A stretch of DNA of 64,000 nt, taken from the NCBI RefSeq assembly GCF_039532215.1, contig NZ_BAAARN010000004.1:346261-410260 (forward strand), written 5' to 3'. The notes under the pieces are model-generated. The model was not told the DNA's origin, ran no database searches, and worked only from the letters and a program-made list of their open reading frames with translations. This DNA is from Pedococcus aerophilus (GTDB lineage Bacteria; Actinomycetota; Actinomycetes; Actinomycetales; Dermatophilaceae). Of the stretch, positions 25,636 through 45,321 are shown one piece after another (position 1 is the first letter of the stretch; each line of letters begins with the position of its first letter). The translations under genes were made by a program, and so were the position numbers.

Positions 25636-25648
25636 GATCGGACTGACA

Positions 25649-29703: not shown

Positions 29704-32700
29704 TCAGCAGGTGCTTCCGTCGACGAGCAGGATGGGACACGAGCCCGTCGACGGCGGGAGCACCCGTTGCAGGCCCCAGATCCCCACCGCGGTGAAGGGT
29801 CTGCGCAGGTCGCCGTAGAAGTAGTCGCCCGGCACCTCGGCCGTCCCGCCGGCGCCCCCGACCACCTCGAGGTCGAAGGTCTCCCACGGAGCCATGCCCT
29901 GGGCTGTCATCCACGGCGAGCGTCCCACGAGCGGGTCCTGGTCCCAGCGCAGGCCGCCCAGGCTGAACACGTGGTTGTTCTCGCTCCCGGGCGCCATCAG
30001 GACGTGGACCACCTCGGGATCGCCGGCGAAGGCGGTGAGGTAGGGCACCTTGCCGGGGTTCTTGAAGCTGGTCGGTCCGTCGCCGGCAGGTGCTGCGAGG
30101 TAGTTGATGGTGGAGCGTCCGATGTTCGCGTTGGTCGGGTAGGGCATGAAGTCCTGACCGATCTGCGTGTCGTCGTCGGCCATGGTCACCGTGAAGTCGC
30201 GGTAGTCCTGAGGCGAGCCTCCGGGGACGTGGACGAGCACCTGGGCGCCGAGGTCCGCGGCCGCACCGGTCACGGGGTCGCTGAACTCCGTGCTCAGGCC
30301 GGGCACCTTGGAGGCGGGGGCGACCACGACCAACCCGTACAGGCCGTTCTTGAGTCGTCCGTTGGAGGCGAGGTCGCTCACCACCGCCGATCCCACCCGG
30401 TGCTCCGGGACGAAGTAGACATAGGACCTGGTGGCGTTGGGGGCGGTGTTCTGGTCCGTGGAGAACCCGATGTTGACTCCGCCCGAGCCGGCCTCGCGGT
30501 CCAGCTTGCCGACGCTGAAACCGACGGGTGTCGTCAGCAGGTTGGTGAGCCGCACGGTGACGCACTCGCCTGCGACCACGTGCATCACGAGGGGGACGGG
30601 AACCTTGAGGCGCGCCTTGATCGAGGCGACGTCCTCATTGGGAACGTAGGCAGTACGGCCCCCGGAGACGTTGCCCGAGCGATCCATCGCACTCAGGTTG
30701 AACTGTCGGGTGGGGGCGCCGGCCGGGCACGGGTTGCCCGGGCCGGTCGTCGGCGGGGGAGCCGCCCCTGTCGGGGTGGGCTGGACGTAGTCCGTGTCCG
30801 GGGTGTTGCCCGGCAGCGGGCGCAGCGAGCCGATCCTGCCGGGCAGGACCCGTACCAGGCCCCAGGCGCCCTGCTGGGTGCGCAGCTCGGTGCCGTTGGC
30901 ATAGAGGTAGTCACCCGGTCTCAGCGCCAGGTCGGGGTCCTTGCCGCCGATGATCAGGCTGTCGCGCTCGCTGATGCCGGCGTGCACCGCGTCGAGGATC
31001 GTCGCCTTGGTCTCGCGCAGCTCCTGGGTCGTGCGGGCGCCGACGAAGTGCAGCGAGTCGGCAGTGGGGGAGACGCTGATGGAGCGGACGACGAGGGGGT
31101 CGCCGGGATACAACCGTGGCATGGGCGTCACGGGGTCGCCATACTTCCACGAGCTGAACTGGTTGGCCTTGTCGAGTCGGGAGGACAACGGATTGGCCTT
31201 GAGGTTGAGGGTGGACCAACCGGCGGCATCGTTGTCGTTGAGCGTCCACAGCACCAGCTCGCGGAAGCTGCCGTCGATGACTCCCGGGACCAGGGGGTCC
31301 GAGGTGTGGATGTCGACGATGGTGCCGGAATCGACCTCATCGCCCGTCACCGGGTCGTGGTAGGTGGAGCCGCGGGGCTCGACGACGAGCTGACCCACCA
31401 GGCCGTGTCCCCAGCCGTGGATGCCGTCGACGTGGTCGTGCCAGAAGACGTTGTCGAGATCCACGTCCGGGTACCAGCGGTACTGGATGAACTCGGTACC
31501 AGCAAACTCCGCCGCCTCGTGGTCGGCGCGTAGGGCTGTGGCCAGGGTCACGGTACCTGCTGCAACGTTGACGGATGCCACCTGGTGCACCTCGATCGAG
31601 TCGAGCCCTTCGCCGACGGCCAGCCAGGGGCGCGTCGGTTGGCCGTTGGCGTCGGTTCCGGCCAACTTGGCCACCGACGACAGGCTCAGCACGTTGTCGC
31701 CCGCTCGGGCGGTGGCGACGAGCCGGGTGTCGGTGACGGAGTAGGGGCGCACGCTGTGCTCGTAGGCGAAGCCGGCGGAGACGCCGTCCGAGCCCTGGAT
31801 GTCGAACTGCACGTGGTGGATGTGCATGGACGTCTTGGAGAACTTGTCGAACGCCGAGGCGTCGGGGATCTCGTTGGTCAGGGTGATGGCCACGCAGTCG
31901 CCTGCATTGGCGCGGATCGCGAGCGGGTCGGAGCGTGCCGGATCGGCCAACGTGGCTGCCTTGTCCTTGGCCAGGACGAAGAGCTTGCCGTCAGGGTCGT
32001 TCACCGTCGGGGTGCGGGGAATGCTCTTGCCGATGGCCACGACGTTGTAGTTGCGTCGCTCCCGGTTCTGGGGACACAGCCCGTCGTCCCGTCCGGCCCA
32101 TGGGTCGGCCGAGGAACCGGAGGCCTGGTTCGCGTTCGCGCCCAACCACGGGGTGCCGGAGTGTCCGTTCCCCGTGAACGGTGGTCGCTTCCCGATGTTG
32201 GTGCGCAACAACGGGTAGGCCGGTCTGCCGTTCACAGGGTTGAACAAGATCGCGGGGCGGCTCCCCACGACGCGTCCGACGTCGACCGCGAGGAGGTTCG
32301 GCTGTCCGGGGACGACCTGGACAGAGTCCGGGAACACCGTCGGATCGGCGGGTGCACCCAGGTACAGCGGGGAGTCGATCGTCCCGGCGATCTTCCAGTC
32401 CCACACGGTCGGGTCCTGTCCGCCCTTCGGTATGCCGGACGGCGGCAGCTGCGGACGCACCCAGTCGTCGAGGTTGTCCTTCGTCAGGGTCGTTCCGTTG
32501 TAGGTCCGGTCCAGCAGACCGGTCGAGTCGACAGCGACGGGCGGCGAAGGACGGTCTCCGATCGGCACGAGATCAGGCTGGAGGGTGTCGAAGACCCGCC
32601 ACAGGCCCCACATTCCCGAGGTGTAGTGCTTGGCGATGTGGCAGTGGAAGAGGAAGTCGCCGGCACTCTGCTGGACGCCGCCGGCGCCACCCTCGATCTC

Positions 32701-34422
32701 GAGGTTGTAGGACTCGCCCGGCCCGACCGACTGGGAGTCCAGGCGTTGCGACTGCGACCCGGTGGCGGGGTCCTTCTGCAGACCGGTCTCGGCGTAGCTC
32801 GTGGCGTCGTCGGCCACGGGATTGGCCCGCCACCGGTCGCCGCCACCGTGAAGGTGGAACACGTGGAACTTCTCGGCACCGACGTGCATGAGGCGGATCT
32901 TGGTGGGGTCGGCGAGGTAGCCGCGCATGATCGGCGTCGCCGGCTCCCCGAAGGTGTAGGAGCTGTAGGCGTGCGACTTCTCCTTGGGGAAGGCCAGCAG
33001 GCGGTTGCGGAACGGCTCGGAGCGGTAGTTGAGCGCGAAGGCACCGGGACGGTAGGAACCAGTGGTGTCGTCGACGAGGGGGATGTCGGTGCCGGTCCTG
33101 TCCTTCAGCAGCTCGTTGTCGTTGCCGATCTCATGGTGCAGCAGCGCTGCCTCACGGAACCCGCAGGTCGGCATCGTCGAGTAGCGATCGCATGCGACGT
33201 CGGTCCCGCCCGGCTTGATGATGGCCTCCCACCCCGAAAGGAGCGGCTTGCCCGGCGTGGTCGGGTCCCAGTACGTGGAGCCCTTCGGCTCGACGACGAG
33301 CGCGCCGAACAGGCCGTGGTTGACGGCGGCCCGGAATCCCGGCCCGGGGTGGACGTAGTGTCCTCCCTCTGCGCGAGCGTCGTCCGGGACGGCGAAGCGA
33401 TAGGTGCGGGTCGCACCCACCGGCACCGTGGCCGTCGGGTTCCTCCCGAGGGTGTTCCCGGACGAGGCCAGCGTGAACTCGAGCCCGTCGATGTGGAAGC
33501 CGTACGCGCCGGTCGCGGACTGGTTGGTGTAGCGGACCTGGACGCAGTCACCTTCGTTGGCACGGATCACGAGTGGCTGGATGGCGTCGCCGTGGAGACC
33601 GACCGACACCTTCTGCGAGAGCGCCTGGGCCCGGACGGCCGCGACCTGGCTGGTGAGCGCGTAGATCTTGCCCTTGGGGTCGTGGTCACCGAACCGGTTG
33701 AGGGGCGTGTCGACGTCCATCGCCGTGATGTCGAAGACCTTGTCGGCCGGGCCGCCGGCGAAGCAGCTCGCCGATCCGGGAGACGGCGACGCCACCGCGG
33801 GGACAGAACTGGCTGCAGCTGTGGCCGCCGCCACGGCGATGACCGACAGCCCGGCGATCACGCGGCGGCTGCCAGCTCCCTTGCGCAGCAGCACGATCGC
33901 GATGCGCGGGATGAGTGGACCGGCCACCACGAGGATCGCCAGCGGCAGGTAGACGACGAGCAGGGACGCCGTGTCTGCAAGCAGGGCGATCACCGGCAGG
34001 GCCTCGCTGCCGGTGTCGAAGAACGTGGAGCGGATGCCGTGGCCGGCAGCTCCGGCTGGGGCTGCGGTCATCGCGACCTGGAGGGTGGCCACCACGGCCG
34101 CCTCCCCGGACTGGGCGCCGCGGCGGTTGCGGGCGAGCACGGTCGGGACGGCCAGAAGGAGCAGGGGAAGGAGGAAACCGGTCACAGGGAGGCCGTCGAG
34201 GAGAACATCCAGGTGGGGCCGACCTGCTGGCACACCCGGCCCCTCTACCTGCTCGAGCCACCCCAGCCACAGCGCTCCGACCACGGCGAAGGAGCAGGCG
34301 ACCAGGACATCCCTGACGACACGCGGCACCAGGTCTGGGGCTCGACGTCCGGTCTGGGTCCCTGAGCGGGTCCGTGCGCGGGTCTGCCCGTCGAGCTGTG
34401 CTCGGGTGGCGGGGTGAGTCAT
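29704..34422 (-). CDS. giant membrane-anchored multicopper oxidase, MnxG-like
   Basis: This 1572-residue protein is a putative extracytoplasmic metal oxidase. Hydrophobic helices lie at about residues 36-56, 79-97, 141-180 and 187-210. A chain of about six cupredoxin-like domains follows. The copper ligands are complete but scattered: HVFHLHGG (His520, His523, His525) and FHCHIAKHYTSGM (His593, Cys594, His595, His599, Met604) give the type 1 site and half of the trinuclear site. MHIHHVQFD (His867, His869) and FWHDHVDG (His995, His997) give the rest. This size and spread are those of MnxG-type Mn(II) oxidases, far larger than laccases (about 500 residues). The start overlaps the stop of the upstream partner gene (ATGA). 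Other oxidised substrates (Fe, Cu, phenolics) are possible. Confidence 0.85.
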   Translation of the reverse strand: MTHPATRAQLDGQTRARTRSGTQTGRRAPDLVPRVVRDVLVACSFAVVGALWLGWLEQVEGPGVPAGRPHLDVLLDGLPVTGFLLPLLLLAVPTVLARNRRGAQSGEAAVVATLQVAMTAAPAGAAGHGIRSTFFDTGSEALPVIALLADTASLLVVYLPLAILVVAGPLIPRIAIVLLRKGAGSRRVIAGLSVIAVAAATAAASSVPAVASPSPGSASCFAGGPADKVFDITAMDVDTPLNRFGDHDPKGKIYALTSQVAAVRAQALSQKVSVGLHGDAIQPLVIRANEGDCVQVRYTNQSATGAYGFHIDGLEFTLASSGNTLGRNPTATVPVGATRTYRFAVPDDARAEGGHYVHPGPGFRAAVNHGLFGALVVEPKGSTYWDPTTPGKPLLSGWEAIIKPGGTDVACDRYSTMPTCGFREAALLHHEIGNDNELLKDRTGTDIPLVDDTTGSYRPGAFALNYRSEPFRNRLLAFPKEKSHAYSSYTFGEPATPIMRGYLADPTKIRLMHVGAEKFHVFHLHGGGDRWRANPVADDATSYAETGLQKDPATGSQSQRLDSQSVGPGESYNLEIEGGAGGVQQSAGDFLFHCHIAKHYTSGMWGLWRVFDTLQPDLVPIGDRPSPPVAVDSTGLLDRTYNGTTLTKDNLDDWVRPQLPPSGIPKGGQDPTVWDWKIAGTIDSPLYLGAPADPTVFPDSVQVVPGQPNLLAVDVGRVVGSRPAILFNPVNGRPAYPLLRTNIGKRPPFTGNGHSGTPWLGANANQASGSSADPWAGRDDGLCPQNRERRNYNVVAIGKSIPRTPTVNDPDGKLFVLAKDKAATLADPARSDPLAIRANAGDCVAITLTNEIPDASAFDKFSKTSMHIHHVQFDIQGSDGVSAGFAYEHSVRPYSVTDTRLVATARAGDNVLSLSSVAKLAGTDANGQPTRPWLAVGEGLDSIEVHQVASVNVAAGTVTLATALRADHEAAEFAGTEFIQYRWYPDVDLDNVFWHDHVDGIHGWGHGLVGQLVVEPRGSTYHDPVTGDEVDSGTIVDIHTSDPLVPGVIDGSFRELVLWTLNDNDAAGWSTLNLKANPLSSRLDKANQFSSWKYGDPVTPMPRLYPGDPLVVRSISVSPTADSLHFVGARTTQELRETKATILDAVHAGISERDSLIIGGKDPDLALRPGDYLYANGTELRTQQGAWGLVRVLPGRIGSLRPLPGNTPDTDYVQPTPTGAAPPPTTGPGNPCPAGAPTRQFNLSAMDRSGNVSGGRTAYVPNEDVASIKARLKVPVPLVMHVVAGECVTVRLTNLLTTPVGFSVGKLDREAGSGGVNIGFSTDQNTAPNATRSYVYFVPEHRVGSAVVSDLASNGRLKNGLYGLVVVAPASKVPGLSTEFSDPVTGAAADLGAQVLVHVPGGSPQDYRDFTVTMADDDTQIGQDFMPYPTNANIGRSTINYLAAPAGDGPTSFKNPGKVPYLTAFAGDPEVVHVLMAPGSENNHVFSLGGLRWDQDPLVGRSPWMTAQGMAPWETFDLEVVGGAGGTAEVPGDYFYGDLRRPFTAVGIWGLQRVLPPSTGSCPILLVDGSTC

Positions 34423-35006
34423 GGCGTGACCTGCCTCGTGACTGTGGTGCTGGGGAGCGGTATGGCGGTGGTGGAGGGTGGACCCGATGTTCCGTGGCCG
34501 TGCTCCGCCGCGGTGCCGGCGACGTCCACCCGCAGCAGCGGCACGGGGTCCTGGCCGGGAGCGGTGAGGCGCAGCTGGGCGCCGTTGCGCGGCACGACGT
34601 ACGAGAGCGCGCCCTCCAGGTGTCCACCACGACGCAACGTGCCCCGCTCCATCGACCCGGGGACCGGATCGATGGGCACGGTGCCCGCAAGGGCGCGCAG
34701 GACCGAGGTGTCGAAGCGGGAGTCCTTGTCGGCGCCCACGTCGAGGGTGACCCGGACGAGGGCCTGGTCGGTGGTGACGAGGCTGTTCACGCCGTGCGAC
34801 ATCCCGCCCAGGTCGGCGTCACTGAGTCCGCTCACCTGCTCGGCGTGCAGGACGCGGTACTGGATCCCGTTGACCTTCAACGTCATCGCGTCATCGGTAC
34901 CCCAGAGCACGGCTGCGGCGTGGCGGACGCCGATGGCGGTCGTCGACAGGACGAGCAGCGCCACCACGGCCACCCGCCACAACCCTGACGAAGTCACACG
35001 GGACAT
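34419..35006 (-). CDS. single-pass secreted partner of the multicopper oxidase
   Basis: This 195-residue protein of no recognised family has an N-terminal signal or anchor helix (about residues 11-34), a beta-type extracytoplasmic domain and a His-containing C-terminus (AAEHGHGTSG). Its stop overlaps the multicopper oxidase start, so the two are translationally coupled. By position it parallels the small MnxE/MnxF subunits that bind MnxG in Bacillus, but I see no sequence evidence of homology. The start at 35006 is chosen for the signal peptide; an upstream in-frame ATG at 35135 would run through the shared regulatory motif. No Shine-Dalgarno sequence is obvious. Confidence 0.7.
   Translation of the reverse strand: MSRVTSSGLWRVAVVALLVLSTTAIGVRHAAAVLWGTDDAMTLKVNGIQYRVLHAEQVSGLSDADLGGMSHGVNSLVTTDQALVRVTLDVGADKDSRFDTSVLRALAGTVPIDPVPGSMERGTLRRGGHLEGALSYVVPRNGAQLRLTAPGQDPVPLLRVDVAGTAAEHGHGTSGPPSTTAIPLPSTTVTRQVTP
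34429..34441 (-). promoter_or_regulatory. shared leader/RBS element of the multicopper oxidase gene
   Basis: On the minus strand the 13-mer TCACGAGGCAGGT ends 6 nt before the oxidase ATG and contains the GAGG ribosome-binding core. The same 13 bases precede the heme peroxidase start 7.7 kb away, also 5-6 nt before the ATG. Shared translational control or recent copying of a leader would explain this. Confidence 0.5.
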
Positions 35007-35024
35007 GGATCGATGGTCGCGCTG

Positions 35025-35046
35025 CGACCTTGGGCAAATCTTTGGG
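35025..35046 (-). promoter_or_regulatory. shared 22-bp element, copy 1 (multicopper oxidase operon)
   Basis: The plus strand reads CGACCTTGGG then CAAATCTTTGGG. It matches the element before the heme peroxidase gene at 20 of 22 positions. On the minus strand it contains near-repeats CCCAAAG and CCCAAGG offset by 12 bp. It lies 18 nt upstream of the partner-protein start and also inside the gap to the divergent copper gene copCD, so it may control both. Confidence 0.6.
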
Positions 35047-35098
35047 CTCGTCCTCCCGACGGAGTTGTTCGTCGGGAGCGCGCCGTTAGGCTCCGAGC

Positions 35099-36532
35099 GT
35101 GCCCTTCCGCCGCGGGCTCCGTGGTCGTGGCGCAACCGCCCTTGCGGTCGCGCTGTGCTGCTGCGCCCTGACCTGGTTCACCGCCACGGCTGCGCAGGCG
35201 CACGCCAGCCTGGTCCGCAGCTCGCCCGCGGCAGGGGCTGTGGTCCCCCGCGCCCCCGAAGCGGTGACGCTGACGTTCGGGGAACAGGTCCTGGCTGCCG
35301 ATGCCGGGGTGCGGGTCTACGACGACCGGTTCGCCGAGCTCGACGTGGGGCCGGCGGCCGCAGCACCGAGTGATCCCCTGACCATCGTCGTGGCCTTGCC
35401 GCGGGGGCTGGCGACCGGCACCTACACCGTGGCCTGGCGGGTCAGCTCCCGCGACACCCATCCGGTTGCTGGGTCCTTCCAGTTCTCCGTCGGCAGCACC
35501 AGCCGGGTCGTCGGAACGTTGCCTGAGACAGGGCGCAACGAAGCCGTGGGTACGTTCCTCGGGGTGCTGCGGTGGGTCGGCTTCGTCGGTGCCGCCCTGG
35601 GGCCCGGCGCCGTCGTGGCCGCCCTGCTGGTGTGGCCGGCCGGACTCGGCACCCGACCGCTGCGCAGGGTGGTCGGCGCAGGGCTCGCGCTGCTCGTCGT
35701 GAGCACGGCGGGAGGGATGTTGCTGCAGGGCGTCTACGCCAGCGGGCAGCCCCTGGCGTCCCTCTGGCGGGCGCCCGAGACCCTCGACAGCCACTCGGAG
35801 CGGTTCGACCGGGTGTATGCCGTCCGGAGCTACCTGCTCGTCGCAGCCACGGTCGGGGTGGTCGCCCTGCTCGGGCTTCCCGCCGAGGCGCGCGACCGGT
35901 GGCGGCGGGCGTGGGTGGTCGTGGCAGCGGTGGCCGCACTGGCGCTGCTGGCGACGTGGCCCCTCGTCGGGCACTCGGCCGTGCCGCCGGGGGCTCAGGT
36001 GGCGGTCGTCGTCAACCTGGTCCACCTCGCGGCCATGGTGCTCTGGCTCGGTGGCCTGGCCGTGGTCCTCGTCGGTGTGGCCGTCGACCGGGACGTGGTG
36101 GTCGCCGATGGGCTGCGCCGGTTCTCCCTGGTGGCGCTCGGGAGCGTCACCGTCCTCGTGGCGTCGGGTGTGGTGCTTGCCTGGCGCGAGGTCGGCACCG
36201 TGGGCGCGCTCGGCGGCACGACCTTCGGACGGGTCCTGCTGGCCAAGACGGCAGCCGTGGTGGTGCTGCTGGGCGTGGCGGACCTCGCCCGCCGGTGGGT
36301 AGCGCGAAACGCGACCGGTGATGAGGTGGAACCCGTTGGCACGACTCATGATCGTGGCTTCTCACGCTTTCGCACCGGGCTGGTGGGAGAGGTCGCGCTG
36401 GCCGCGGTGATCCTCGGCCTCACCGCGGCACTGGTCTCCGTGGTGCCCGGCCGCCAGGCGCCCGAGGGGGCGCCCGGGTCGTCCGCCCCGGCAGGCACGT
36501 CGGTCGGGCCCGTCACGCCCACCGGTCGCTGA
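35099..36532 (+). CDS. CopC-CopD fusion copper protein
   Basis: This 477-residue protein joins a periplasmic-type CopC copper-binding domain to a CopD membrane domain. A signal peptide (residues 1-34) precedes HASLVRSSPAAGAVV, whose first His is a Cu ligand after cleavage. SSRDTHPVAGSFQF supplies the second copper-binding His. About eight membrane helices follow (residues 150-450), including LVGHSAVPPG and LVHLAAMVLWLGGLAVVLVG. It probably imports or delivers copper for the neighbouring multicopper oxidase. It is divergent from the oxidase operon and starts at a GTG. Confidence 0.88.
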   Translation: MPFRRGLRGRGATALAVALCCCALTWFTATAAQAHASLVRSSPAAGAVVPRAPEAVTLTFGEQVLAADAGVRVYDDRFAELDVGPAAAAPSDPLTIVVALPRGLATGTYTVAWRVSSRDTHPVAGSFQFSVGSTSRVVGTLPETGRNEAVGTFLGVLRWVGFVGAALGPGAVVAALLVWPAGLGTRPLRRVVGAGLALLVVSTAGGMLLQGVYASGQPLASLWRAPETLDSHSERFDRVYAVRSYLLVAATVGVVALLGLPAEARDRWRRAWVVVAAVAALALLATWPLVGHSAVPPGAQVAVVVNLVHLAAMVLWLGGLAVVLVGVAVDRDVVVADGLRRFSLVALGSVTVLVASGVVLAWREVGTVGALGGTTFGRVLLAKTAAVVVLLGVADLARRWVARNATGDEVEPVGTTHDRGFSRFRTGLVGEVALAAVILGLTAALVSVVPGRQAPEGAPGSSAPAGTSVGPVTPTGR

Positions 36533-36682
36533 CCACACCGGTCGGTAGGGGACGGTGCCGTTGGGCCACGCGGCATACCGAACTGATCACCAGTCGCGAC
36601 GTCGAGCGTGGCCGGTGCGGCCGCGGCGCGTCGGCGGCGCGGCACACCTCGGCCATCCCACAGGCTGGTGCAGCGCGCACGT

Positions 36683-36722
36683 GCAGCTGCCCGGCACCTC
36701 GTCCAAGGTGCCGGGCAGCTGC
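36683..36722. terminator. 17-bp perfect hairpin terminator of copCD
   Basis: The arms GCAGCTGCCCGGCACCT (36683-36699) and AGGTGCCGGGCAGCTGC (36706-36722) are perfect inverted repeats around a 6-nt loop. The symmetry lets it work for both convergent units. Confidence 0.75.
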
Positions 36723-36734
36723 GGGTGGGGCGGT

Positions 36735-36766
36735 GCCCCGGACTGTGTGAGGGGGTGGTCCGGGGC
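36735..36766. terminator. secondary hairpin
   Basis: GCCCCGGAC (36735-36743) and GTCCGGGGC (36758-36766) form a 9-bp perfect stem with a 14-nt loop, just beyond the main terminator. Confidence 0.45.
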
Positions 36767-36814
36767 CCGCGGTCGTGGGGGTCGTGCTCCGGACGGTGCC
36801 GGACGGTGCCGGTA

Positions 36815-36837
36815 CCGGGGGATCCCTCGTCCCCCGG
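36815..36837. terminator. hairpin terminator of the heme peroxidase gene
   Basis: CCGGGGGA (36815-36822) and TCCCCCGG (36830-36837) form an 8-bp perfect stem with a 7-nt loop, 17 nt past the peroxidase stop codon on the minus strand. Confidence 0.6.
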
Positions 36838-36853: not shown

Positions 36854-39800
36854 TCATCGAGCCACCACCGTGTTGGACTTGGCCGAGGCGGGGCTGTCAC
36901 CCAGGGCGTTGATGGCGACCACCTCGAACTGGTAGTTGCCCGCCGTCAGGGCGATGGTGCGCGGCGTCACCGTGCCGTTGAAGGTCGTCTGGCTGAAGAA
37001 CGACGTGCTGCCATCGGCCGCGACTCGGTAGGCCAGGACCCGGTAGTTCGTGATGATCGAACCACCGTTGCTGGCCGGAGCCGTCCAGACGGCTTGGGCG
37101 TTGATCGCGCCGCCGGTGGCACCCGAGAGGGCGGTGCCGATGGTCGGAGCGCCGGGCACGGTGGCCGGGGTCACCGTGTTGGAGGCCGTGGACAGCGCAC
37201 TCGTGCCGTTGGCGTTCACCGCCTGGACTCGGAAGTTGTACGCCGTGCCGTTGGTGAGTCCGGTGATGACCGTGGAGGGCGTGCTGCCACTGATCGGTTC
37301 CGTCCTGACCACCGTGGTCCCGGTCCGGACGGTGACGATCCAGCCTGTGACGGGTGAGCCGCCATCGCTGCCAGGCGTCCAGCTCACGCTGGCCGTGGTG
37401 TTGCCCCTGACTGCGACCACGCCCGTCGGTGCGCTCGGGATGCCCACGGGGGTGACCGCGTTGGACGCGGCCGAGAGCGGACCTGACCCGAAGAGGTTGT
37501 TGGCACGCACCTGGAAGGTGTAGCTGCGTCCCGTGACGAGTCCGGTGACCGTGCGGCTGGTGGCCGTACGAGCAATCCCGGTGACGGTCTGGGTGATGGC
37601 TCCGCCAGAGCTGACGACGATGTCGTAGCTCGTGATCGGCGAGGTCCCGGCCGGCAGGACCGGAGCGGTCCAGGTCACGGTCGCCGAACCCGTGATGCTG
37701 GCGCTGGGCGTCGTCGTGGCGGCGACGTTGGTCGGCGCCGGCGGCGGGGTGAGCAGCAGCACCTGGTCGGTGAACTGCACCCGCTCGATGCCCCGGAGGG
37801 TGTCGACACCGTCGGAGACCTTCTGCGTTGCCCGGTTGACGGCCCCGGTCTGGGTGACCGTGAAGCTGCCGTTGGCGTTGCGGACGATTGTGAAGGAGGA
37901 ACGCGGGGCCAAGAACACCGCCGTGTCGACACCGGTATCACCCGCGGGTGCACCCACGATCTCGCGCACCGCCACCAGCTGGCCCGGGTCGAGCGTCCCG
38001 TCGAAGATCGCCTGCTGCAGCGTCTTGGGGTTGCCCGCCTGGTAGGTGCCCTCCATCAGGGTGGCGGAGCCGATCTCGGCGCCGGTCCCGTCCGGGTTGG
38101 TGCGGACGCTGATCCGCACCTGGAGGGAGCGGTCACCGTCGATGATGTCGTTGGCGCCACGTCCCGTGATCGTGTCGCTCCCGCCACCGCCGAGCAGGAT
38201 GTTGCCGTCGCCCCAGATGGGTCCGGAGAGCGGGCAGGTGCCCGCGGCCGACGCCGCGACGACCGGTGCGAGGTCGCCGGTGAGCGGTTGCGGCACGATG
38301 GCTGCGAGCCCACTGATGCGGTTGACGCCCGCCTGATCTAGGACGTTGCAGCCGGCGAACCCGGCACCACCGAGGACTGCCGGCACGTCGTCGGTGCCAC
38401 GGATGACGTCGTCCCGGCTCGAGCCCGAGTCGGCCTCGACCTCCTGCCAGCGGTCGCGGTTGACGACCACCTGGATCGGCAGCGGCCCGAGGTTGTTGTT
38501 GATCGCCATGTCGTCGTCCGCGGCGACGGTGTTGTACTGGTGGATCGCCCAGTCGAAGCCAGCGGCTCCGGCGTTGCGGTCGACGAACGAGTTCTGGCTC
38601 ATGATGTCGTCGCCGCCCTCGGCGTCGTAGTCGTTCTCACCGACCTGGCCGACGAAGACGTCGTGACCGGGACTGGTCTCGGCAGGGTCGTCGAAGAACG
38701 GAGCGGCGTGGTCGCCGATGAGCAGGTCCTGGCCCGCGCCGCCCTGGAGCCAGTCGTCGCCACCGTCGCCGAAGGCCGTGTCGGTGCCCGCGCCCGCGAT
38801 GACGAAGTCGTCATCCGGCCCGGCGAACTCCTCGTTGTCGTTGGCACCGCCGTTGAGGAAGTCCTTGCCGTCTCCGCCCATCATGATGTCGATGCCGTTG
38901 CCGGCGTCCATGGCGTCGTTGCCGGGACCGCCCTTGAGGACGTCCGCCCCACCGGTGTCGGTGATGCGGTCGGATCCGTCGCCGCCGATGGTGACGTCGT
39001 CACCGGAGTTGCCGTCCAGCCAGTCGTCACCGTCGTTGCCCAGGATGGTGTCGTTGTCGATGCCACCCTTGACCCGGTTGGACGTGGTGTCGCCGTTGTA
39101 GACGGACTGCCCGTTGATGCCGGCCGGGTCGATCGAGTTGACGAGCTTGTAGGTGATCTGGCCGTTGGCCGATCGGGTGAGCAGTGCGGTCTCGTCACAG
39201 TCCGTGGTCGGGTCGTCGGCGACGGTGGCGCCGAACTGCGTGAACCCGGCTGCGGTGTTGGCGAGGTTGCCCATCTGGAACTTGCAGTCCGCCGTGGCGA
39301 ACGCGTCCTGCTTGAGCGTGTGCGTGTTGTCGGTGTTGCGCATGACCATCTCAGCGAAGCTGTTGCTCTCCAACTGGGTGCGCAGGTTCATGCCGGGGGT
39401 CCGGGCCAGGTAGTAGAACCGGTCCCCGTTCTGCAGGTTGGTCAGCGACGTCTCGAACACGTAGTTGAACGTCTTGCCGAGAAGGCCTCCGTTGATGTCG
39501 GTGGCCTCGGCGAGGCCACCCACCCAGAGGTCGACCTTGTTCAGCCCGGTCTCCTGGTTGGCCCAGTCGCCGCTGCCGTTGATGAAGTCCATCTCGTCCT
39601 GGGTCGGGCTGATGCCCAGGCCCGGGTCGATGATCTTCTGGGCGGCTGCGCGCTTGTCGACGTAGGTCGTGGCATTGACGATCGTCGGGTACGTCCCATA
39701 GGCGGCCACGAAGTTCACGAGGGACTCCGGGTGCTTCAGGTTGTTGCCGAAGTCGGCCCAGCTCGTGTAGGGCGCGAGCTGTCCGTCGTTGGTCACCGCG

Positions 39801-42112
39801 TTGATCTTGCGACGCAGGTCGTTGAGGGATGGAATGCCCTCGGAACGGGCCCGGGTCATGTTCAGGGTCGGGAGGTCGAGCGGCAACCCCAGCAGGTTGT
39901 TGCGCAGGGTCTCCGTGACGAACTCGTCGATCTCCTGCCCGACCTGGTCGGACATGCCCATCATGATGCCGCCAGCGGCCGCCTCAGAGCTGATGGTGTT
40001 GTGGTTCTGGTCCCGGTTGAACTCCGGGGGGTTGAGGAACCCGTCGAGCAGCTTGATGTCGTAGTGCTGCGGTGGCGAGGTCGAGCCGGCGGGGACCGGC
40101 GCGGTGCGGTCTATGGTCTCGGCCAGCATGGAGTGGCCGAAGCGGTAGACAGCGTGGGCGAACTCAGCGGGGATCGTCGGGTTCACGTCGCTGTGGTAGA
40201 CGTGGAACGGGTCGATCGCCGGCTGCACCTTGCGGGCGAACTCCTCGAACACCAGGTGCTGGTACTCCATCTCGGTGACGAAGCGTGCCGCCTGGAAGAG
40301 GCGCTGCCCGTAGTTCCACCCGGCCGGGCCGCTCGTGCGCCGCCACTGGTCGAGGACGGACTGCGGCACCTTCGTGGTCAGGGTGGTGTTGATGTCCCCC
40401 ACGAGCCGGTCGTGCTCGGAGTGGAAGATCTGGTGCACGGCCGACAGCGCGATGTTCTCGTTGACTCGCCCGTCTCCCGCGGTGAAGTGGGAGTCGAGCA
40501 GCTCGTCGTCGTAGGTGTTGGGGGCCTGCCCGTCGAGCTGGGTCCCTGCCGTGGCGTCGCTGTCGGGGTCCTTGCAGCCCGCCGGGCTGTTGGTCCCGGG
40601 GACGTCGCAAGGGCCGACCGAACCCGGATCGGCGTCGTGGGCGATGTCGGTGAGGAACGGCGTGTGGAAGTGCAGCACGTTGGCCGGGGGGGCGACGGGA
40701 GCAGCCAGGTCACCTTCGACGGTTCCTGTCGCGGTGACCCACATCGGGAGGCCTCGGTCCGGACCGGGCTTGAAGTTTCCGTAGGGGTCCGTCGCAATCA
40801 TCGGGATGTCCGCGACATCAGTGTCGCGGAGCCGCAGGCCCAGAACACGAGCCGCTTGGTCCTTGGTGGTCGCCCAGGTGGACATGCCGCCCTTGCGCAG
40901 ATCGTCGGTGGCCAGCCCGTTGGCGATGCTGGGACCGCCGAGCAGGCGACCTGTGTCCTTCGGGTGGTTGGCGGCGTCGAGCTCGTACTCGCGCAGGAAC
41001 GCCTGATGGGAGCCGTGCGAGGTGTATGTCTGGCTCTGGTCCACGAGCGGGGTGTCGGTGTTGTCCGCATCCTGCACGTCGTCGGCGGTGCCGAGGACCC
41101 CGTCGTCGCCTACCTGGTTCTGACCGCGGGTGAGGACCATGAACCGAAGATTCGGGTCGAGGTCGTCGGAGGTGCCGAGAACGCCGTCCTTGCCCAGGAC
41201 GAGCGGGTCGTCGTCGTGCAGCGGCACGAAGACGGTGCCACCGCCCTTGACGGTCTGGTCGACGCCGTGGTCGAAGAACTGGCCGAAGATGGTGAAGAGG
41301 CCGTTGGAGGGCGGGGACAGCCCTACGTCGGTCGTGATGTTCGGGATGGACAGGGTCTCGCCGGACGGCGTGCACCCGTCGGGGTTGCCGTTCGGGTCCG
41401 TTGCGCTGGGGTCTCCCCCCGGTCCGCAGGGCACCACGCCCTTGTTTCCCTGGCTTCGCACCGGGTTGCCGGCGGCCGCCACGGCGGCCGGGTTCTTCGC
41501 CGTCTGGTCGACGATGAGGTTGCTGATCGTCCGCGGCTGGCTGTCGAAGACCATGTTGCCGAGGGTCTTGGACTGGTAGGTCGTGGGGGACCCGGCTCCG
41601 GGGAAGGGCGCCGGCACGTTCTCCGCGTTCTTGAAGTCCGCGGTGGCCATGCGCTCGAACGGCACGTCGGCGGCGGCGAACTTCTCGCGGCCGGGAACCA
41701 GGTTGTTGCACTCGCCGCCCACGGTGCGCAGGCCGTAGGACGTGAGCACGTCCGGCACCTGCTCGGTGTCCGGGATGCCGTCGCCGACCTGGTTGAGCAG
41801 CCCCTTGCAGGGCTCGGCAGGGGTCGCCGTCGCGGCGTGGCGCTCGGCGATGTTGATCTGCTTCAGGATGAACGAGAGGTCACCCGTGGTGATGGTGAAA
41901 CCTGCTCCGACCGGCGCGACGGCGGCACTGGCTGCCATCGACGGCTGGAGCAGCAGTGCGGCGACGACGGCACCGACGGACCCGATAACCGTCATACGGG
42001 CTGGTCGTCGTAGGGTCCTGCTGCGTCGGCGGCCACTCGGGCCGGAGCGACCTGCCCCGGAGACCTGGAGCTCGCGAGCTACACGCTCGAACCGTGCGTG
42101 GGAAAGGGCCAT
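36854..42112 (-). CDS. giant secreted animal-type heme peroxidase with RTX and FN3 repeats, MopA-like
   Basis: This 1752-residue exported peroxidase has a long Arg-rich n-region followed by a signal helix (about residues 40-65). The animal-type heme peroxidase domain covers about 265-930. FGQFFDHGVD gives the distal His282, DGRVNEN the catalytic Arg549, AVHQIFHSEHDRLV the following helix, and YRFGHSM the proximal His660. RTX calcium-binding nonapeptides fill about 1015-1135 (GNDGDDWLDGNSGDD and similar) with a second patch near 1305-1326. Three fibronectin type III domains (about 1458-1750) end the protein. A heme peroxidase plus RTX repeats is the layout of MopA, the Mn(II)-oxidising peroxidase of Aurantimonas and Roseobacter. 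It lies 81 nt downstream of a histidine kinase gene. Confidence 0.9.
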   Translation of the reverse strand: MALSHARFERVARELQVSGAGRSGPSGRRRSRTLRRPARMTVIGSVGAVVAALLLQPSMAASAAVAPVGAGFTITTGDLSFILKQINIAERHAATATPAEPCKGLLNQVGDGIPDTEQVPDVLTSYGLRTVGGECNNLVPGREKFAAADVPFERMATADFKNAENVPAPFPGAGSPTTYQSKTLGNMVFDSQPRTISNLIVDQTAKNPAAVAAAGNPVRSQGNKGVVPCGPGGDPSATDPNGNPDGCTPSGETLSIPNITTDVGLSPPSNGLFTIFGQFFDHGVDQTVKGGGTVFVPLHDDDPLVLGKDGVLGTSDDLDPNLRFMVLTRGQNQVGDDGVLGTADDVQDADNTDTPLVDQSQTYTSHGSHQAFLREYELDAANHPKDTGRLLGGPSIANGLATDDLRKGGMSTWATTKDQAARVLGLRLRDTDVADIPMIATDPYGNFKPGPDRGLPMWVTATGTVEGDLAAPVAPPANVLHFHTPFLTDIAHDADPGSVGPCDVPGTNSPAGCKDPDSDATAGTQLDGQAPNTYDDELLDSHFTAGDGRVNENIALSAVHQIFHSEHDRLVGDINTTLTTKVPQSVLDQWRRTSGPAGWNYGQRLFQAARFVTEMEYQHLVFEEFARKVQPAIDPFHVYHSDVNPTIPAEFAHAVYRFGHSMLAETIDRTAPVPAGSTSPPQHYDIKLLDGFLNPPEFNRDQNHNTISSEAAAGGIMMGMSDQVGQEIDEFVTETLRNNLLGLPLDLPTLNMTRARSEGIPSLNDLRRKINAVTNDGQLAPYTSWADFGNNLKHPESLVNFVAAYGTYPTIVNATTYVDKRAAAQKIIDPGLGISPTQDEMDFINGSGDWANQETGLNKVDLWVGGLAEATDINGGLLGKTFNYVFETSLTNLQNGDRFYYLARTPGMNLRTQLESNSFAEMVMRNTDNTHTLKQDAFATADCKFQMGNLANTAAGFTQFGATVADDPTTDCDETALLTRSANGQITYKLVNSIDPAGINGQSVYNGDTTSNRVKGGIDNDTILGNDGDDWLDGNSGDDVTIGGDGSDRITDTGGADVLKGGPGNDAMDAGNGIDIMMGGDGKDFLNGGANDNEEFAGPDDDFVIAGAGTDTAFGDGGDDWLQGGAGQDLLIGDHAAPFFDDPAETSPGHDVFVGQVGENDYDAEGGDDIMSQNSFVDRNAGAAGFDWAIHQYNTVAADDDMAINNNLGPLPIQVVVNRDRWQEVEADSGSSRDDVIRGTDDVPAVLGGAGFAGCNVLDQAGVNRISGLAAIVPQPLTGDLAPVVAASAAGTCPLSGPIWGDGNILLGGGGSDTITGRGANDIIDGDRSLQVRISVRTNPDGTGAEIGSATLMEGTYQAGNPKTLQQAIFDGTLDPGQLVAVREIVGAPAGDTGVDTAVFLAPRSSFTIVRNANGSFTVTQTGAVNRATQKVSDGVDTLRGIERVQFTDQVLLLTPPPAPTNVAATTTPSASITGSATVTWTAPVLPAGTSPITSYDIVVSSGGAITQTVTGIARTATSRTVTGLVTGRSYTFQVRANNLFGSGPLSAASNAVTPVGIPSAPTGVVAVRGNTTASVSWTPGSDGGSPVTGWIVTVRTGTTVVRTEPISGSTPSTVITGLTNGTAYNFRVQAVNANGTSALSTASNTVTPATVPGAPTIGTALSGATGGAINAQAVWTAPASNGGSIITNYRVLAYRVAADGSTSFFSQTTFNGTVTPRTIALTAGNYQFEVVAINALGDSPASAKSNTVVAR

Positions 42113-42117
42113 GACAC

Positions 42118-42130
42118 ACCTGCCTCGTGA
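42118..42130 (-). promoter_or_regulatory. shared leader/RBS element of the heme peroxidase gene
   Basis: The minus-strand TCACGAGGCAGGT ends 5 nt before the peroxidase ATG. It is identical to the element before the multicopper oxidase gene and contains the GAGG core. Confidence 0.5.
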
Positions 42131-42157
42131 GGGAATGACAGGCCCACGGTGAAGGCA

Positions 42158-42179
42158 CGACCTTGGGAAAATCTTTCGG
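42158..42179 (-). promoter_or_regulatory. shared 22-bp element, copy 2 (heme peroxidase)
   Basis: The plus strand reads CGACCTTGGG then AAAATCTTTCGG and differs from copy 1 at two positions. It lies 45 nt upstream of the peroxidase start, between that gene and the histidine kinase stop. Its presence argues for a separate peroxidase promoter under the same control as the multicopper oxidase operon. Confidence 0.6.
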
Positions 42180-42193
42180 GCGCGCGGCTCGGC

Positions 42194-43537
42194 TCAGCGG
42201 GGGAGTATGGCGCGCACCGTGGTGCCGTGCGGTCGGCGCGGTATGACGTCCACGGTGCCCCCCGCTTCGGAGATCGTCTCGCGCACGATGTCGAGGCCCA
42301 CGTGTCCGGCGGTCCGGTGTGGACCACCAGGGTCGGTGCCGCGGCCGTTGTCCGAGACCCGCAGCTCGACCGAGTCGGAAGTGATGACGAGATCGACGTC
42401 CACCGTGCTCGCCTCGGCGTGCTTGGAGACGTTGACCATCGCCTCCCTGGTGACGCGGTGAACCAGTCCCGCAGTCACCGGGTCGACGCCGGGGTCGGGG
42501 TCGAGCTCGAGGTTGACGCGCAGTCCCTGCTGCACGAGAACGGCGGCTAGCTCGCGGATGGAGGCGTCGAGCCCGCCGTCGTGGGTCGTGACGGGGAAGA
42601 GGTTGGCGACGATGTCGCGCAGCAGCTGGACGTCCCGGCGCAGGATCTGAGCCGTCCGTTCCACGGTGTGGGCCACATCCCGGTCGATGGTCTGCTGACC
42701 GGTCCGGCTCGTCGCGGTGCGACCGGACCTGCCGACCGACTCGAGCGTGACAGCGACACCCGAGAGGTCCTGGATGACGTCGTCGTGCAGGTCCTGGGCC
42801 AGTCGATGTCGTTCGAGCTCGACGGCCTTGACCGTCTGTGCGAGCATCCGCAACCGTGACCGGCGGATGCTGGTGACCCGTCGGGCGAGGCCGATGGCCA
42901 GCGGCAACTGGGACAGGGCGAGGGTGCCCAGGGCGAGCATCCCGACGGGGACCATCTGGGAGACCAGCTGGTTGCGTTCGCGCTCGACCCTGACGAGGGG
43001 GAAGTACATCTCGTAGACGACGTCGATGCCGTTCGTCGAGACGGGCAGCGTGTAGACCTCGACCAGCCCGCCGCTGGCTCGTTCGAAGACGTTCTCGGGC
43101 TCATCGAGGTCGGAGATGGCCGAGACGGGAGGGGCGCCGGGGACGAGTCCGGCCAGGTCGGGGTTGGACGGGTATCGTCGCCCGATGAGGGAGTGCTCGT
43201 CGGAGTAGATGATGGTGCCGTCGCGGGTCCAGATCTTGACGCGTGCAAGGGAGCCGTCACTCATCCGGCCCGTCAGTCGCCGGTCCATGGCAGCGATGGC
43301 GTCGGGATCGGCGGCGAGCAGGCCCGCGGTCACCGCGGGAGCCAGTAGTCGGCGGGCGATGCTCGCGCCGTCCTCGGCGGCACTCTGCAGCGCGTGGTGC
43401 TCGGCGATCCGGCTCAGGGCGACGAAGGTCGGCACGGATACGACGACCAGCGCCACGGCGCCGTAGAGGAGATAGCGCAGGACGGCGTGCCGGACCTCTG
43501 CGGTCTCGGACCCGGAACGCCAACGGGTCACCATCAT
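42194..43537 (-). CDS. NarL-type sensor histidine kinase
   Basis: This 447-residue membrane kinase has transmembrane helices at about residues 21-41 and 193-218 flanking a 150-residue extracytoplasmic sensor region (WTRDGTIIYSDEHSLIGRRY resembles single-Cache sensors). The HisKA_3 dimerisation helix holds phospho-acceptor His251 in RLAQDLHDDVIQDLSG, and the HATPase domain shows REAMVNVSKHAEA and SDNGRGTDPGG. Its start overlaps the response-regulator stop (ATGA). The heme peroxidase gene follows. The ligand is unknown. Confidence 0.9.
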   Translation of the reverse strand: MMVTRWRSGSETAEVRHAVLRYLLYGAVALVVVSVPTFVALSRIAEHHALQSAAEDGASIARRLLAPAVTAGLLAADPDAIAAMDRRLTGRMSDGSLARVKIWTRDGTIIYSDEHSLIGRRYPSNPDLAGLVPGAPPVSAISDLDEPENVFERASGGLVEVYTLPVSTNGIDVVYEMYFPLVRVERERNQLVSQMVPVGMLALGTLALSQLPLAIGLARRVTSIRRSRLRMLAQTVKAVELERHRLAQDLHDDVIQDLSGVAVTLESVGRSGRTATSRTGQQTIDRDVAHTVERTAQILRRDVQLLRDIVANLFPVTTHDGGLDASIRELAAVLVQQGLRVNLELDPDPGVDPVTAGLVHRVTREAMVNVSKHAEASTVDVDLVITSDSVELRVSDNGRGTDPGGPHRTAGHVGLDIVRETISEAGGTVDVIPRRPHGTTVRAILPR

Positions 43538-44214
43538 CGATGGGCGTCGCGCGACAGCCGATCTGGTCGACCGATGGTCACCAGCCCGAGACGGGCGGCA
43601 ATCACCACGGCCTCCAGCTGGCTGTGGGCATTGAGCTTGATGAGGATCGACTGCACGTAGCTGCGGCAGGTGCTCAGGGAGATGTCGAGCTCCTTGGCTA
43701 TGTGCTGGACGTCCTCGCCGTCGGCCAGCAGGGCGAGGACGTCGAGCTGTCGATCGCTCAGGCGAACGGCCGGCTCACGTGGAGCAGCCGCGTCGGCGAT
43801 GAGGTGGATCATCAGGTCTGGGTCCACCGCCACGTGCCCCGGTCGCGCGGTCCGGACAGCAGCGAGCATGGCGGCCAACGTCCCGTCCTTGGCGAGGAAG
43901 CCGCAGGCGCCTGCGACCAGCGCGTCGCCCGCGAACTCGGGCTTGGCGTGGGCGGTGAGGACGATGACCCGTGCGAACGGGTCCATCGCCATGATCTGGC
44001 GTGTCGCGTCGAACCCCGTGGCGTCGGGAAGCTGGACGTCCATGAGCACGAGCTCGGGTCGCAGGTCGCGGAACATCGCGACCCCGGCCGCCGCCGTGGT
44101 CGCGTGACCGACGCTCTCGAGGTCGGGCTCACGGTCCAGGGCGCCGGCCAGCAGCTCCGCGAAGGTGGTGTGGTCGTCCACGACCAGCACCCGAGTCGTC
44201 GGGTTGCGGACCAT
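43534..44214 (-). CDS. NarL/FixJ-type response regulator
   Basis: This 226-residue regulator has a receiver domain with acidic residues Asp13 and Asp14, phospho-acceptor Asp59 in ELVLMDVQLPD and Lys109 in GFLAKDG. The LuxR-type helix-turn-helix lies at about residues 150-212 (LSDRQLDVLALLADGEDVQH, then IAKELDISLSTCRSYVQSIL). It is coupled to the downstream kinase gene and is the probable direct partner of that kinase. Confidence 0.9.
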   Translation of the reverse strand: MVRNPTTRVLVVDDHTTFAELLAGALDREPDLESVGHATTAAAGVAMFRDLRPELVLMDVQLPDATGFDATRQIMAMDPFARVIVLTAHAKPEFAGDALVAGACGFLAKDGTLAAMLAAVRTARPGHVAVDPDLMIHLIADAAAPREPAVRLSDRQLDVLALLADGEDVQHIAKELDISLSTCRSYVQSILIKLNAHSQLEAVVIAARLGLVTIGRPDRLSRDAHR

Positions 44215-44298
44215 GCAGCGCTCACCCCCTCGTCGTGCGGTGCGGGTCGGCGGGGATGGGACGGCATCTGTGCATCCCGAGCGCCCGCCCCCCGATTG

Positions 44299-45321
44299 TC
44301 AGGCCGTTCGCGCTGCCGCGGCTCCACCATTAGGCGTGCCGCTCCCCATCATGAGCAGGCTGGTCAGCGCCCGTCGCGCCTCGTCGACGGGCACAGGCGA
44401 GCTCGGGAGTGAGGCGGTGGTCCGGGTACCGGGGCTCGTACGGTCGCTCGGTCCCGTGGCGCCGTGCAGGCTGACCACGGCGTCGAGGAGCCGGCTGAGC
44501 TCACTGTTGGCCTCGTTGGCCCCCCGCAGCATCCGGACGTACGTGTCCTGCAGCACTCGTCCGGGGGAGCAGCCGAGCTCGCGGGAGAAGACACGCCGGC
44601 AGTCGTTGTAGGCGCGCAGGCCCTCGGCGTGCAGACCGAGTCGTTCCAGGCTGGACAGGTAGGCGATCCAGGCGGCCTCGTCCAGGCAGTCGCGGCGCAC
44701 GGCGAGAAGGGACCAGTGCCGGGCCAGGGAAGGAGCGATGTTCATGATCTTGACCGCCCCTTGGACCAGCTGGTTGCGCAGGAGGCCCGAGTGCAGTCTC
44801 CGAAGGTCCACGAGCCACTCGAGGTCGCCCTCCTCGGGAAGCAGCTCCGCGTCACCGAGGGCGAGCGCCTCGGCCAGCAGGGGCAGCGAGTCGTCGGGCG
44901 GAGTGCGGGGATCGGTCGCCAGCCGGACGAGGCGGCGGTACCGGTCGAGGTCGAGGTCGATGCGTGCCATGTCGACCGTGTAGCTCCCCGACACCGTGCA
45001 GATGATGTCCTCACTGCCGACAGCGGCGGCGTGCAGGTGCTTGCGCAGGACGCAGGCGTACGTCTCGAGGTTGGCCTTCGAGCCGTGCCCCCCTTCGCCC
45101 GGCCAGAGCATCGACACCAGCTTCTCCTTGGACACCGGCGACCCACCATGGGCGAGCAGGGCCTCCAGGATCAGGCGCGGCTTGGTGCCCCCCAACTGAC
45201 GCGGCCCCAGCCTCACGCCGCCCACCGTCAGGCGGAAGCCGCCCAGGAAGGACACCTCCATGGTCGGAGCTGCCAGGCCTGCCCGGGATCCGAGCGCAGT
45301 GATGGTCTCGTGTGTCGTCAT
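44299..45321 (-). CDS. SARP-type (BTAD) transcriptional regulator
   Basis: This 340-residue regulator has a winged-helix OmpR-like DNA-binding domain (about residues 20-115: VSFLGGFRLTVGGVRLGP, LGGTKPRLILEALLAHGG, VSKEKLVSMLWPG) followed by a bacterial transcriptional activation domain (about 120-270, ending RAYNDCRRVFSRELGCSPGR). SARPs activate transcription from direct-repeat operators and are known chiefly from antibiotic clusters. The start at 45321 is preceded by GAGGAGG. It is upstream of, and on the same strand as, the two-component system and the heme peroxidase. Confidence 0.87.
   Translation of the reverse strand: MTTHETITALGSRAGLAAPTMEVSFLGGFRLTVGGVRLGPRQLGGTKPRLILEALLAHGGSPVSKEKLVSMLWPGEGGHGSKANLETYACVLRKHLHAAAVGSEDIICTVSGSYTVDMARIDLDLDRYRRLVRLATDPRTPPDDSLPLLAEALALGDAELLPEEGDLEWLVDLRRLHSGLLRNQLVQGAVKIMNIAPSLARHWSLLAVRRDCLDEAAWIAYLSSLERLGLHAEGLRAYNDCRRVFSRELGCSPGRVLQDTYVRMLRGANEANSELSRLLDAVVSLHGATGPSDRTSPGTRTTASLPSSPVPVDEARRALTSLLMMGSGTPNGGAAAARTA

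Follow-up and report, generated by a model that had tools for sequence, protein, structure and literature searches.

What do a giant multicopper oxidase (MCO) and a very large heme peroxidase do side by side in an actinobacterium? Both are encoded in a 64,000-nt stretch of DNA from Pedococcus aerophilus (the window; host genome, 4.02 Mb), within a block at positions 29704-45432. We consider it reasonably probable that this block combines a MnxG-like giant MCO with a MopA-like RTX peroxidase, that both genes are co-activated through the same 30-bp repeat-plus-minus-10 promoter box by the block's own SARP-type regulator, and that the system likely serves Mn(II) oxidation outside the cell. The parts of this reading differ in firmness. 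The firmest is that the oxidase pair very likely constitutes a co-regulated system, because its pairing is conserved and its box is shared. The weakest is the identity of the substrate, for which Mn(II) is the best inference.

An original prediction had placed in one block the MCO with a partner protein, a CopC-CopD protein, the peroxidase, a kinase, a response regulator and a SARP, and all of these genes are found there. On the minus strand, the order of transcription is SARP, response regulator, kinase, peroxidase, partner, MCO and a transglycosylase. Other parts of the predicted layout had to be corrected. The CopC-CopD gene is on the plus strand, where it points away from partner-MCO and toward the peroxidase, and the block extends at its far end to the transglycosylase (27781-29502).

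The promoter box and the conserved pair

The box consists of a direct repeat of AAGRT with an 11-bp period, followed by a -10 at a fixed distance. The predicted box of partner-MCO is at 35013-35042 on the minus strand (repeat 35042-35025, -10 35018-35013) and reads AAGATTTGCCCAAGGTCG-N6-GACCAT, with the repeat AAGATTT-GCCC-AAGGTCG and the ATG 6 bp after the -10. That of the peroxidase is at 42146-42175 on the same strand (repeat 42175-42158, -10 42151-42146) and reads AAGATTTTCCCAAGGTCG-N6-CACCGT, with the repeat AAGATTT-TCCC-AAGGTCG. In the window, AAGRT-N6-AAGRT occurs twice, both times at the oxidase genes, with 0.0 occurrences expected from 20 Markov sequences. Genome-wide, there are six matches and none for the reversed control. 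Perfect composite boxes (repeat and -10) number exactly two in the 4.02 Mb, and these are the MCO and peroxidase boxes; the four other repeat matches lack a -10 and were ruled out. Allowing one mismatch adds two composite matches (one in the reversed control), which look incidental. A 30-bp matrix, built with the window's own MCO site included, scores the two window boxes at 36.5 and 30.4 and the next place at 9.4.

In published SARP promoters, the repeats are 11 bp apart and the 3′ repeat is 8 bp from the -10 (PMC10936776, PMC10972967). The box fits this rule, an agreement that depends on phasing the heptamer as NNAAGRT. The -10 is at the identical distance in 13 of 13 MCO promoters and in 19 of 21 peroxidase sites, whereas the remaining four repeats of the genome all lack it there; the 21 sites were picked by repeat score, and promoters that are related do not count as independent. 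Among the 13 MCO promoters, the gap from the -10 to the ATG is 6 bp in 10 and 7 bp in three. Since the ATG falls 6 bp past the -10 in most of them, the MCO transcript is likely leaderless.

The box is also found in relatives. A matrix trained on 11 MCO promoter sites only was used to scan 450 bp upstream of 37 peroxidase genes, a set that excludes second copies (L131, L133, L137-L140, L142) and fragments (L143, L147, L150). It detected the box before 15 of them at p<=0.01, with 0.37 expected. Six of these genes are beside a giant MCO and nine are not. The null windows came from the same loci with the true sites included, so the p-values are conservative. In the Frankiales metagenome-assembled genome (MAG) RYN_151, for instance, the peroxidase (L132) and the MCO (L103) are unlinked and both promoters carry the box.

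The original prediction had proposed to look for conserved pairing of the two genes across Actinomycetota, and such pairing was found. Within the window's genus, the cluster is present in 2 of 11 genomes. A sample of 186 genomes of the family gave an MCO match in 13, six of them full orthologues, and a peroxidase match in 29, namely the six MCO-orthologue genomes plus 21 others with strong and two with weak matches. All six MCO-orthologue genomes hold the whole cluster with the peroxidase adjacent. A strong peroxidase anywhere in the genome is thus present in 6/6 of them versus 21/180 of the remainder (Fisher 5.6e-6). In a sample of 396 genomes of the phylum, the peroxidase was matched in 22 (five at 53% identity or more) and the MCO in 22 (three with a long match at 43% or more), with both enzymes in two (Fisher 3.8e-4); neither Fisher test is corrected for genome kinship. 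A set of named genomes provided 19 MCO loci in 18 genomes. The carriers are Terrabacter (Root85 with the full cluster), Terracoccus, Intrasporangium, Intrasporangiaceae, Phycicoccus, Nocardioides and MAGs as far as Thermoleophilia and Acidimicrobiaceae. The peroxidase adjoins the MCO in seven of the 19 loci, in addition to the window; another seven (L095, L097, L101, L104, L105, L107, L111) have less than 6.3 kb of upstream sequence and are uninformative on adjacency. A peroxidase match is present in 17 of the 18 genomes, clear in 16 and a 72-residue fragment in one, to be compared with the five of 396 in the phylum sample that reach 53% identity; one carrier genome has none. Adjacency, co-occurrence and a box that in the window's genome is unique to both genes rule out that the two are chance neighbors.

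The two enzymes and their substrate

The MCO (29704-34422, minus strand; 1572 aa) carries the Pfam domains Cu-oxidase_3 and Cu-oxidase_2. Its predicted likeness to MnxG is supported by a search of solved chains with a profile of six sequences, the window protein and five orthologues at 66-86% identity. The profile matched the Bacillus MnxG chain (PDB 9bxa_A) with 355 bits and an E value of 5.6e-105; the next chain scored 43 bits. Four of the six matched stretches are colinear with MnxG over chain residues 3-899, and the other two are cross-matches between repeated domains. With the C-terminal third alone, MnxG was the sole match at E<=0.01, extending to chain residue 1213. The copper ligands are H520/H523/H525, H593-C594-H595/H599/M604, H867/H869 and H995/H997. 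All are invariant in alignments of six and of 16 rows, and the 16-row alignment shows the motifs HVFHLH (520-525), HCHIAKH (593-599), MHIHH (866-870) and WHDH (994-997) unchanged throughout. The order HxxHxH, HCHxxxH, HxH, HxH is that of MnxG, whose second motif reads HCHLYPA. The hydrophobic N-terminus suggests membrane anchoring. A structure prediction for the MCO was of low quality (mean pLDDT 59.5) and was set aside. Giant MCOs of other types, which differ in their motif set, were found in G052, G195b, G125, G030, G016, G070, G130, G148 and G160; a scan for the box at those of G195b, G148 and G160 found none. In G148 (L058/L059, L058:7054-12744), the frame of a divergent RTX peroxidase ends about 1.3 kb from that of a giant MCO (2510 aa) of another type, with CopC-CopD further on and no SARP-type box on scanning.

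The peroxidase (36854-42112, minus strand; 1752 aa) is the only An_peroxidase gene in the genome. An N-terminal animal heme peroxidase domain is accompanied by RTX repeats (HemolysinCabind), fibronectin III repeats (fn3) and two copies of the PERCAL motif G-x-D-G-x-x-[GN]-[TN]-x-D-D, in agreement with its published consensus (PMC3396595). The combination of An_peroxidase, C-terminal RTX and PERCAL bears out the predicted resemblance to MopA, a comparison made by description only. Half of the distinct readable homologues (18 of 36) have the motif. At the active site, the protein reads FHSEHDR where the solved lactoperoxidase 8s6c reads FVREHNR, so that Ser replaces the catalytic Arg. The stretch is readable in 43 of 48 peroxidase loci (36 without seven second copies), and all have Ser or Ala for Arg. 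In addition, 32 homologues, mostly alphaproteobacterial and 37-47% identical, are plasmid-borne. Of three such alphaproteobacterial plasmid homologues, two are readable at this site and both likewise lack the Arg. Loss of this Arg would weaken H2O2 cleavage. This fits the behavior of Erythrobacter MopA-hp, in which H2O2 or its scavengers have little effect on Mn(II) oxidation, with variable effects of superoxide dismutase (PMC6247904). On a Bosea plasmid (L203:1-8682), an Nramp-family divalent metal transporter, a response regulator and an ATP-binding kinase-like protein accompany the RTX peroxidase, with two genes between the transporter and the peroxidase.

Which substrate do these enzymes share? 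Mn(II) is the best guess because Terrabacter is a carrier genus with a Mn-oxidizing isolate and because the MCO has a MopA-like neighbor. The isolate, Terrabacter MOB-326, shows good Mn(II) oxidation, and its link to the cluster is at the level of the genus only (PMC6396730). Actinomycetota more generally are known to contain Mn oxidizers (PMC6396730), and in Pseudomonas putida GB-1 the promoters of mnxG and mcoA depend on Mn (PMC11930936).

A first alternative concerns a single step and overlaps with the reading favored here. The MCO alone might oxidize Mn, with the peroxidase removing or making reactive oxygen. In a superoxide model for Roseobacter AzwK-3b, a peroxidase removes H2O2 and so prevents the reduction of Mn(III) (PMC6247904), and the reported inactivity of MopA in P. 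putida GB-1 (PMC11930936) agrees with such a role. Nevertheless, MopA-hp itself oxidizes Mn(II) and is little affected by H2O2 or scavengers (PMC6247904), and the loss of the Arg would argue against efficient use of H2O2. We regard this division of labor as unlikely, yet as a serious contender.

A second alternative keeps the co-regulated pair and changes its purpose, to a laccase and peroxidase system for phenolics or humic matter in which Mn would play the part of a mediator at most. Oxidation of phenols is known for MCOs as well as for animal-type peroxidases, the names of at least three carriers point to isolation from root or soil (Root85, Root101, Gsoil 818), and in Phycicoccus Root101 the box also precedes a bilirubin-oxidase-like MCO. 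By contrast, the closest solved relative of the MCO is a Mn oxidase, the peroxidase lacks the mammalian-type catalytic Arg, and an independent cluster of MCO, peroxidase and kinase is present in an alphaproteobacterium from a hydrothermal plume. Organic matter as the main substrate therefore seems distinctly unlikely to us.

Regulators, copper supply and a possible mechanism

Three regulatory genes lie upstream of the peroxidase on the minus strand. These are a sensor histidine kinase with HisKA_3 and HATPase_c domains (42194-43537), a response regulator with a receiver and a LuxR-type helix-turn-helix (Response_reg and GerE; 43534-44214), which overlaps the kinase by 4 nt, and the SARP-type regulator (Trans_reg_C and BTAD; 44299-45432), the candidate binder of both boxes. 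The original prediction had put the edge of the block at 45321, which is an internal ATG of the SARP; the gene reaches to 45432. The expectation of dedicated regulators held in so far as homologues occur near MCO-only, peroxidase-only and joint loci. Relatives of all three are near the MCO in 13 of the 19 named loci and near the peroxidase in three of 19 peroxidase stretches (L112, L116, L124), with SARP and response regulator in a further one (L121). The type of regulator was another matter, as the MnxS/MnxR regulators of P. putida, which the original prediction had brought in, differ in kind from a set of HisKA_3 kinase, LuxR-type regulator and SARP.

The LuxR-type response regulator, or some other factor, might bind the box in place of the SARP, given that homologues of the response regulator and kinase are found with the cluster about as often as those of the SARP. 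This affects the binding step only, and direct repeats with this spacing (11 bp apart, 8 bp from the -10) follow the published SARP pattern (PMC10936776, PMC10972967), so that we hold a different binder to be improbable. Far more improbable is a copper homeostasis island, in which CopC-CopD would serve an MCO that oxidizes Cu(I) and the peroxidase would be an unrelated neighbor: CopC-CopD does lie inside the block and the TIGR01480 copper-resistance MCO model matches weakly (19.5 bits), but the box is common to MCO and peroxidase and unique to them in the genome, both enzymes co-occur in genomes even when not adjacent, and the shared box rules out the copper-resistance reading.

A number of observations do not sit easily with Mn(II) oxidation by a SARP-controlled pair. 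With respect to the enzymes, the MCO scores 122.6 bits against NF041487, the NCBIfam equivalog for MnxG, where the cut-off is 3100, although this model has 1894 positions and is longer than Bacillus MnxG. The partner protein found no solved chain below E 0.1 (best E 0.14). The Aurantimonas enzyme is stimulated by H2O2, and MopA-hp needs NAD+, which is odd for an extracellular enzyme (PMC6247904); in addition, MopA is described as showing no activity in wild-type P. putida GB-1 (PMC11930936). With respect to the box, the matrix scan detected none before four of the window's other genes, namely those for the SARP, the response regulator, CopC-CopD and the transglycosylase, and 22 of the 37 peroxidase promoters were above p 0.01. 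Five of these 22 are at p 0.015-0.05 and the box of L116 is just outside the scanned 450 bp; the remaining ones, including those of Terrabacter and Terracoccus (L093, L100), have no box. Neither was a box found before five of five genes tested in the deeper MCO clade, whose starts are approximate. With respect to the pairing, the peroxidase is commoner than the MCO, being matched in 23 of 180 family genomes that lack an MCO orthologue, and five of the 19 named loci (L102, L103, L106, L109, L110) have at least 7.4 kb upstream and no adjacent peroxidase. Finally, kinase and response regulator identity outside Phycicoccus is about 29-49%, and SARP, kinase and regulator genes are common in actinobacteria, with the counts of the triad given without a background rate.

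Under the favored reading of a co-activated, Mn(II)-oxidizing pair, the system might operate as follows. The kinase would sense a signal, perhaps Mn(II) or the redox state, and pass it to the response regulator. The SARP would bind the 11-bp-period repeat, which overlies the -35 of both promoters, and recruit RNA polymerase to the -10. Partner-MCO would then be transcribed leaderless, as the spacing of -10 and ATG suggests, and CopC-CopD would supply copper. An anchored, immunoglobulin-like partner may help in the assembly of the MCO; its position in the operon is that of MnxE/MnxF in Bacillus. The MCO, presumably anchored in the membrane, would accept at its type 1 copper the electrons given up by Mn(II) and reduce O2 at the trinuclear center, sites for which the ligands are present. 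The secreted calcium-binding peroxidase would also oxidize Mn(II), or else control reactive oxygen made on the way.

The box may reach beyond this pair. A scan for the composite box with AAGRY allowed as second repeat covered 19 carrier genomes, counting that of the window, and gave 30 matches in 13 of them and none for the reversed control. Of these, 13 are at an MCO or peroxidase, four precede a secreted-looking PKD protein (in Intrasporangium, Terracoccus, Terrabacter and a Pseudonocardiales MAG), two precede Nocardioidaceae transglycosylases, and one each precedes a kinase and a bilirubin-oxidase/CotA-like MCO of Phycicoccus Root101 (L235:5451-7058; best PDB matches bilirubin oxidase, E 1e-106); nine were not assigned to a convincing gene. 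The boxed PKD proteins (L232:8451-10586, L233:3244-5379, L236:2887-5043) have 711-718 aa in the three that were read fully, with an N-terminal part without a Pfam match followed by PKD domains. In L061, a 40% homologue of this protein has two MCOs next to it, one giant and one of three domains. Among 19 peroxidase stretches without a giant MCO, five hold a three-domain MCO, 58-59% identical to that of Root101 in two cases and 28-30% in three. Starts of three-domain MCOs carry the box in L121, L124 and L114 (p 0.012-0.014, with true sites contained in the null), and none was found at those of L112, L115 and G195b. A SARP-controlled actinobacterial regulon for Mn oxidation can tentatively be proposed, with a chance that we put somewhat short of even. 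It would place the giant MCO, the peroxidase, the bilirubin-oxidase-like MCO (in some strains), the secreted PKD protein and a wall-opening transglycosylase on one box, and at the cell surface its two giant enzymes would act in relay, taking Mn(II) by way of Mn(III) to Mn(IV) oxide.

Known systems and neighboring genes

The Bacillus Mnx complex (mnxEFG, 9bxa) resembles the MCO operon in several respects. It has a giant MCO of cupredoxin repeats with the same order of regions, HxxHxH and HCH coming before HIH and HDH. In a Priestia relative, a small protein just upstream has an overlapping start and CopC is in the neighborhood; there, CopC precedes two small open reading frames, with two others in between, and the second small one overlaps the MCO. 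In Streptomyces NBC_00335, a 221-aa protein, the MCO and CopC follow in succession, with a SARP past one further gene. By contrast with Bacillus, the window's MCO is 28% identical on pieces to the Priestia relative, has an extra hydrophobic N-terminus and is paired with a peroxidase and a SARP, and it has one immunoglobulin-like partner of 195 aa instead of two proteins of about 12 kDa. This partner (34419-35006, minus strand) overlaps the start of the MCO by 4 nt. It has a His-containing tail, 13 sequences of its family align, and an AlphaFold model (mean pLDDT 77) predicts an N-terminal helix, likely a signal anchor, and a beta-sandwich. Foldseek returned two lipoproteins, ycdA and yjhA (E 1.9e-4 at best), a loose match with TM-scores of 0.27-0.46 in the two best rows. 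DUF4352 matches weakly in three of the 13 members (best E 0.012), and the Streptomyces equivalent at 0.00059. No resemblance to MnxE or MnxF was found by sequence in a search of the PDB sequence library, in which the presence of MnxE/F is unconfirmed.

The Mn oxidases of P. putida GB-1 are encoded by unlinked genes. The window differs in having its two oxidase classes together under one SARP-type box. What is alike in GB-1 is the presence of several oxidase classes (MnxG, McoA and MopA), a proposed two-component control (MnxS1/S2-MnxR) and Mn-dependent promoters (PMC11930936). The MopA proteins of Erythrobacter SD-21, Aurantimonas and P. putida GB-1 share with the window's peroxidase an N-terminal heme peroxidase, C-terminal calcium-binding repeats and PERCAL (PMC6247904, PMC3396595); unlike these, the window's protein has C-terminal fibronectin III repeats and a giant MCO as neighbor, with no type I secretion genes in the block. 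Streptomyces SARP promoters, such as that of AfsR at afsS, likewise have repeats of 11-bp period overlapping the -35 at a fixed spacing from the -10 (PMC10936776, PMC10972967), whereas the targets here are predicted metal oxidases, not antibiotic genes, and the core is AAGRT. On a plasmid of Limimaricola variabilis (L201:194-13882), a hydrothermal vent plume isolate, an MCO is beside an RTX peroxidase, and the genes follow one another in the order response regulator, kinase, SCO, MCO, RTX peroxidase. In this case, the MCO is of another type (765 aa), SCO stands in for CopC-CopD, type I secretion is present and the stretch seen contains no SARP.

A literature search, largely outside subscription journals, gave no description of a conserved locus in which a MopA-like enzyme comes under the same box as a MnxG-like one. 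Each ingredient is known separately, be it the enzyme classes, SARP boxes or genomes of Mn oxidizers; the joint box over both oxidases appears to be new. The regulation and purpose of Mn biomineralization are unsettled, partly since one organism often holds several Mn oxidases (PMC11930936). A box common to two oxidase classes, with a candidate regulator next door, makes the control of Mn oxidation directly testable. It also provides a marker at the DNA level for new candidate Mn-oxidation genes across Actinomycetota.

Several features remain around the main genes. CopC-CopD, a fusion with the Pfam domains CopC and CopD and a predicted role in copper uptake, spans 35099-36532 on the plus strand, its exact start being uncertain. 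Between it and the convergent peroxidase, a strong hairpin (z -3.0) is found on the minus strand after the peroxidase stop (36790-36860); a terminator pattern scan of this hairpin found no terminator, and it is possibly a terminator without a T-run. Directly downstream of the MCO is the lytic transglycosylase-like protein (SLT_2; 27781-29502, minus strand), with a Thr-rich tail. Homologues are 3′ of the MCO also in Phycicoccus Root101, Nocardioides pocheonensis and Nocardioidaceae BIN47, and those of the last two carry the same promoter box. On the other side, 46674-47867 encodes an exported-looking protein of 397 aa without a Pfam or NCBIfam match at E<=0.01. Beyond the transglycosylase, a YaaA-like peroxide stress protein and an ArsB/CitMHS transporter (24538-26395), kept in Phycicoccus Root101, are probably ordinary flank. 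In G198 (L117), a 59% identical peroxidase adjoins homologues of the window's flanking metallo-beta-lactamase-fold (58%) and ABC (74%) genes.

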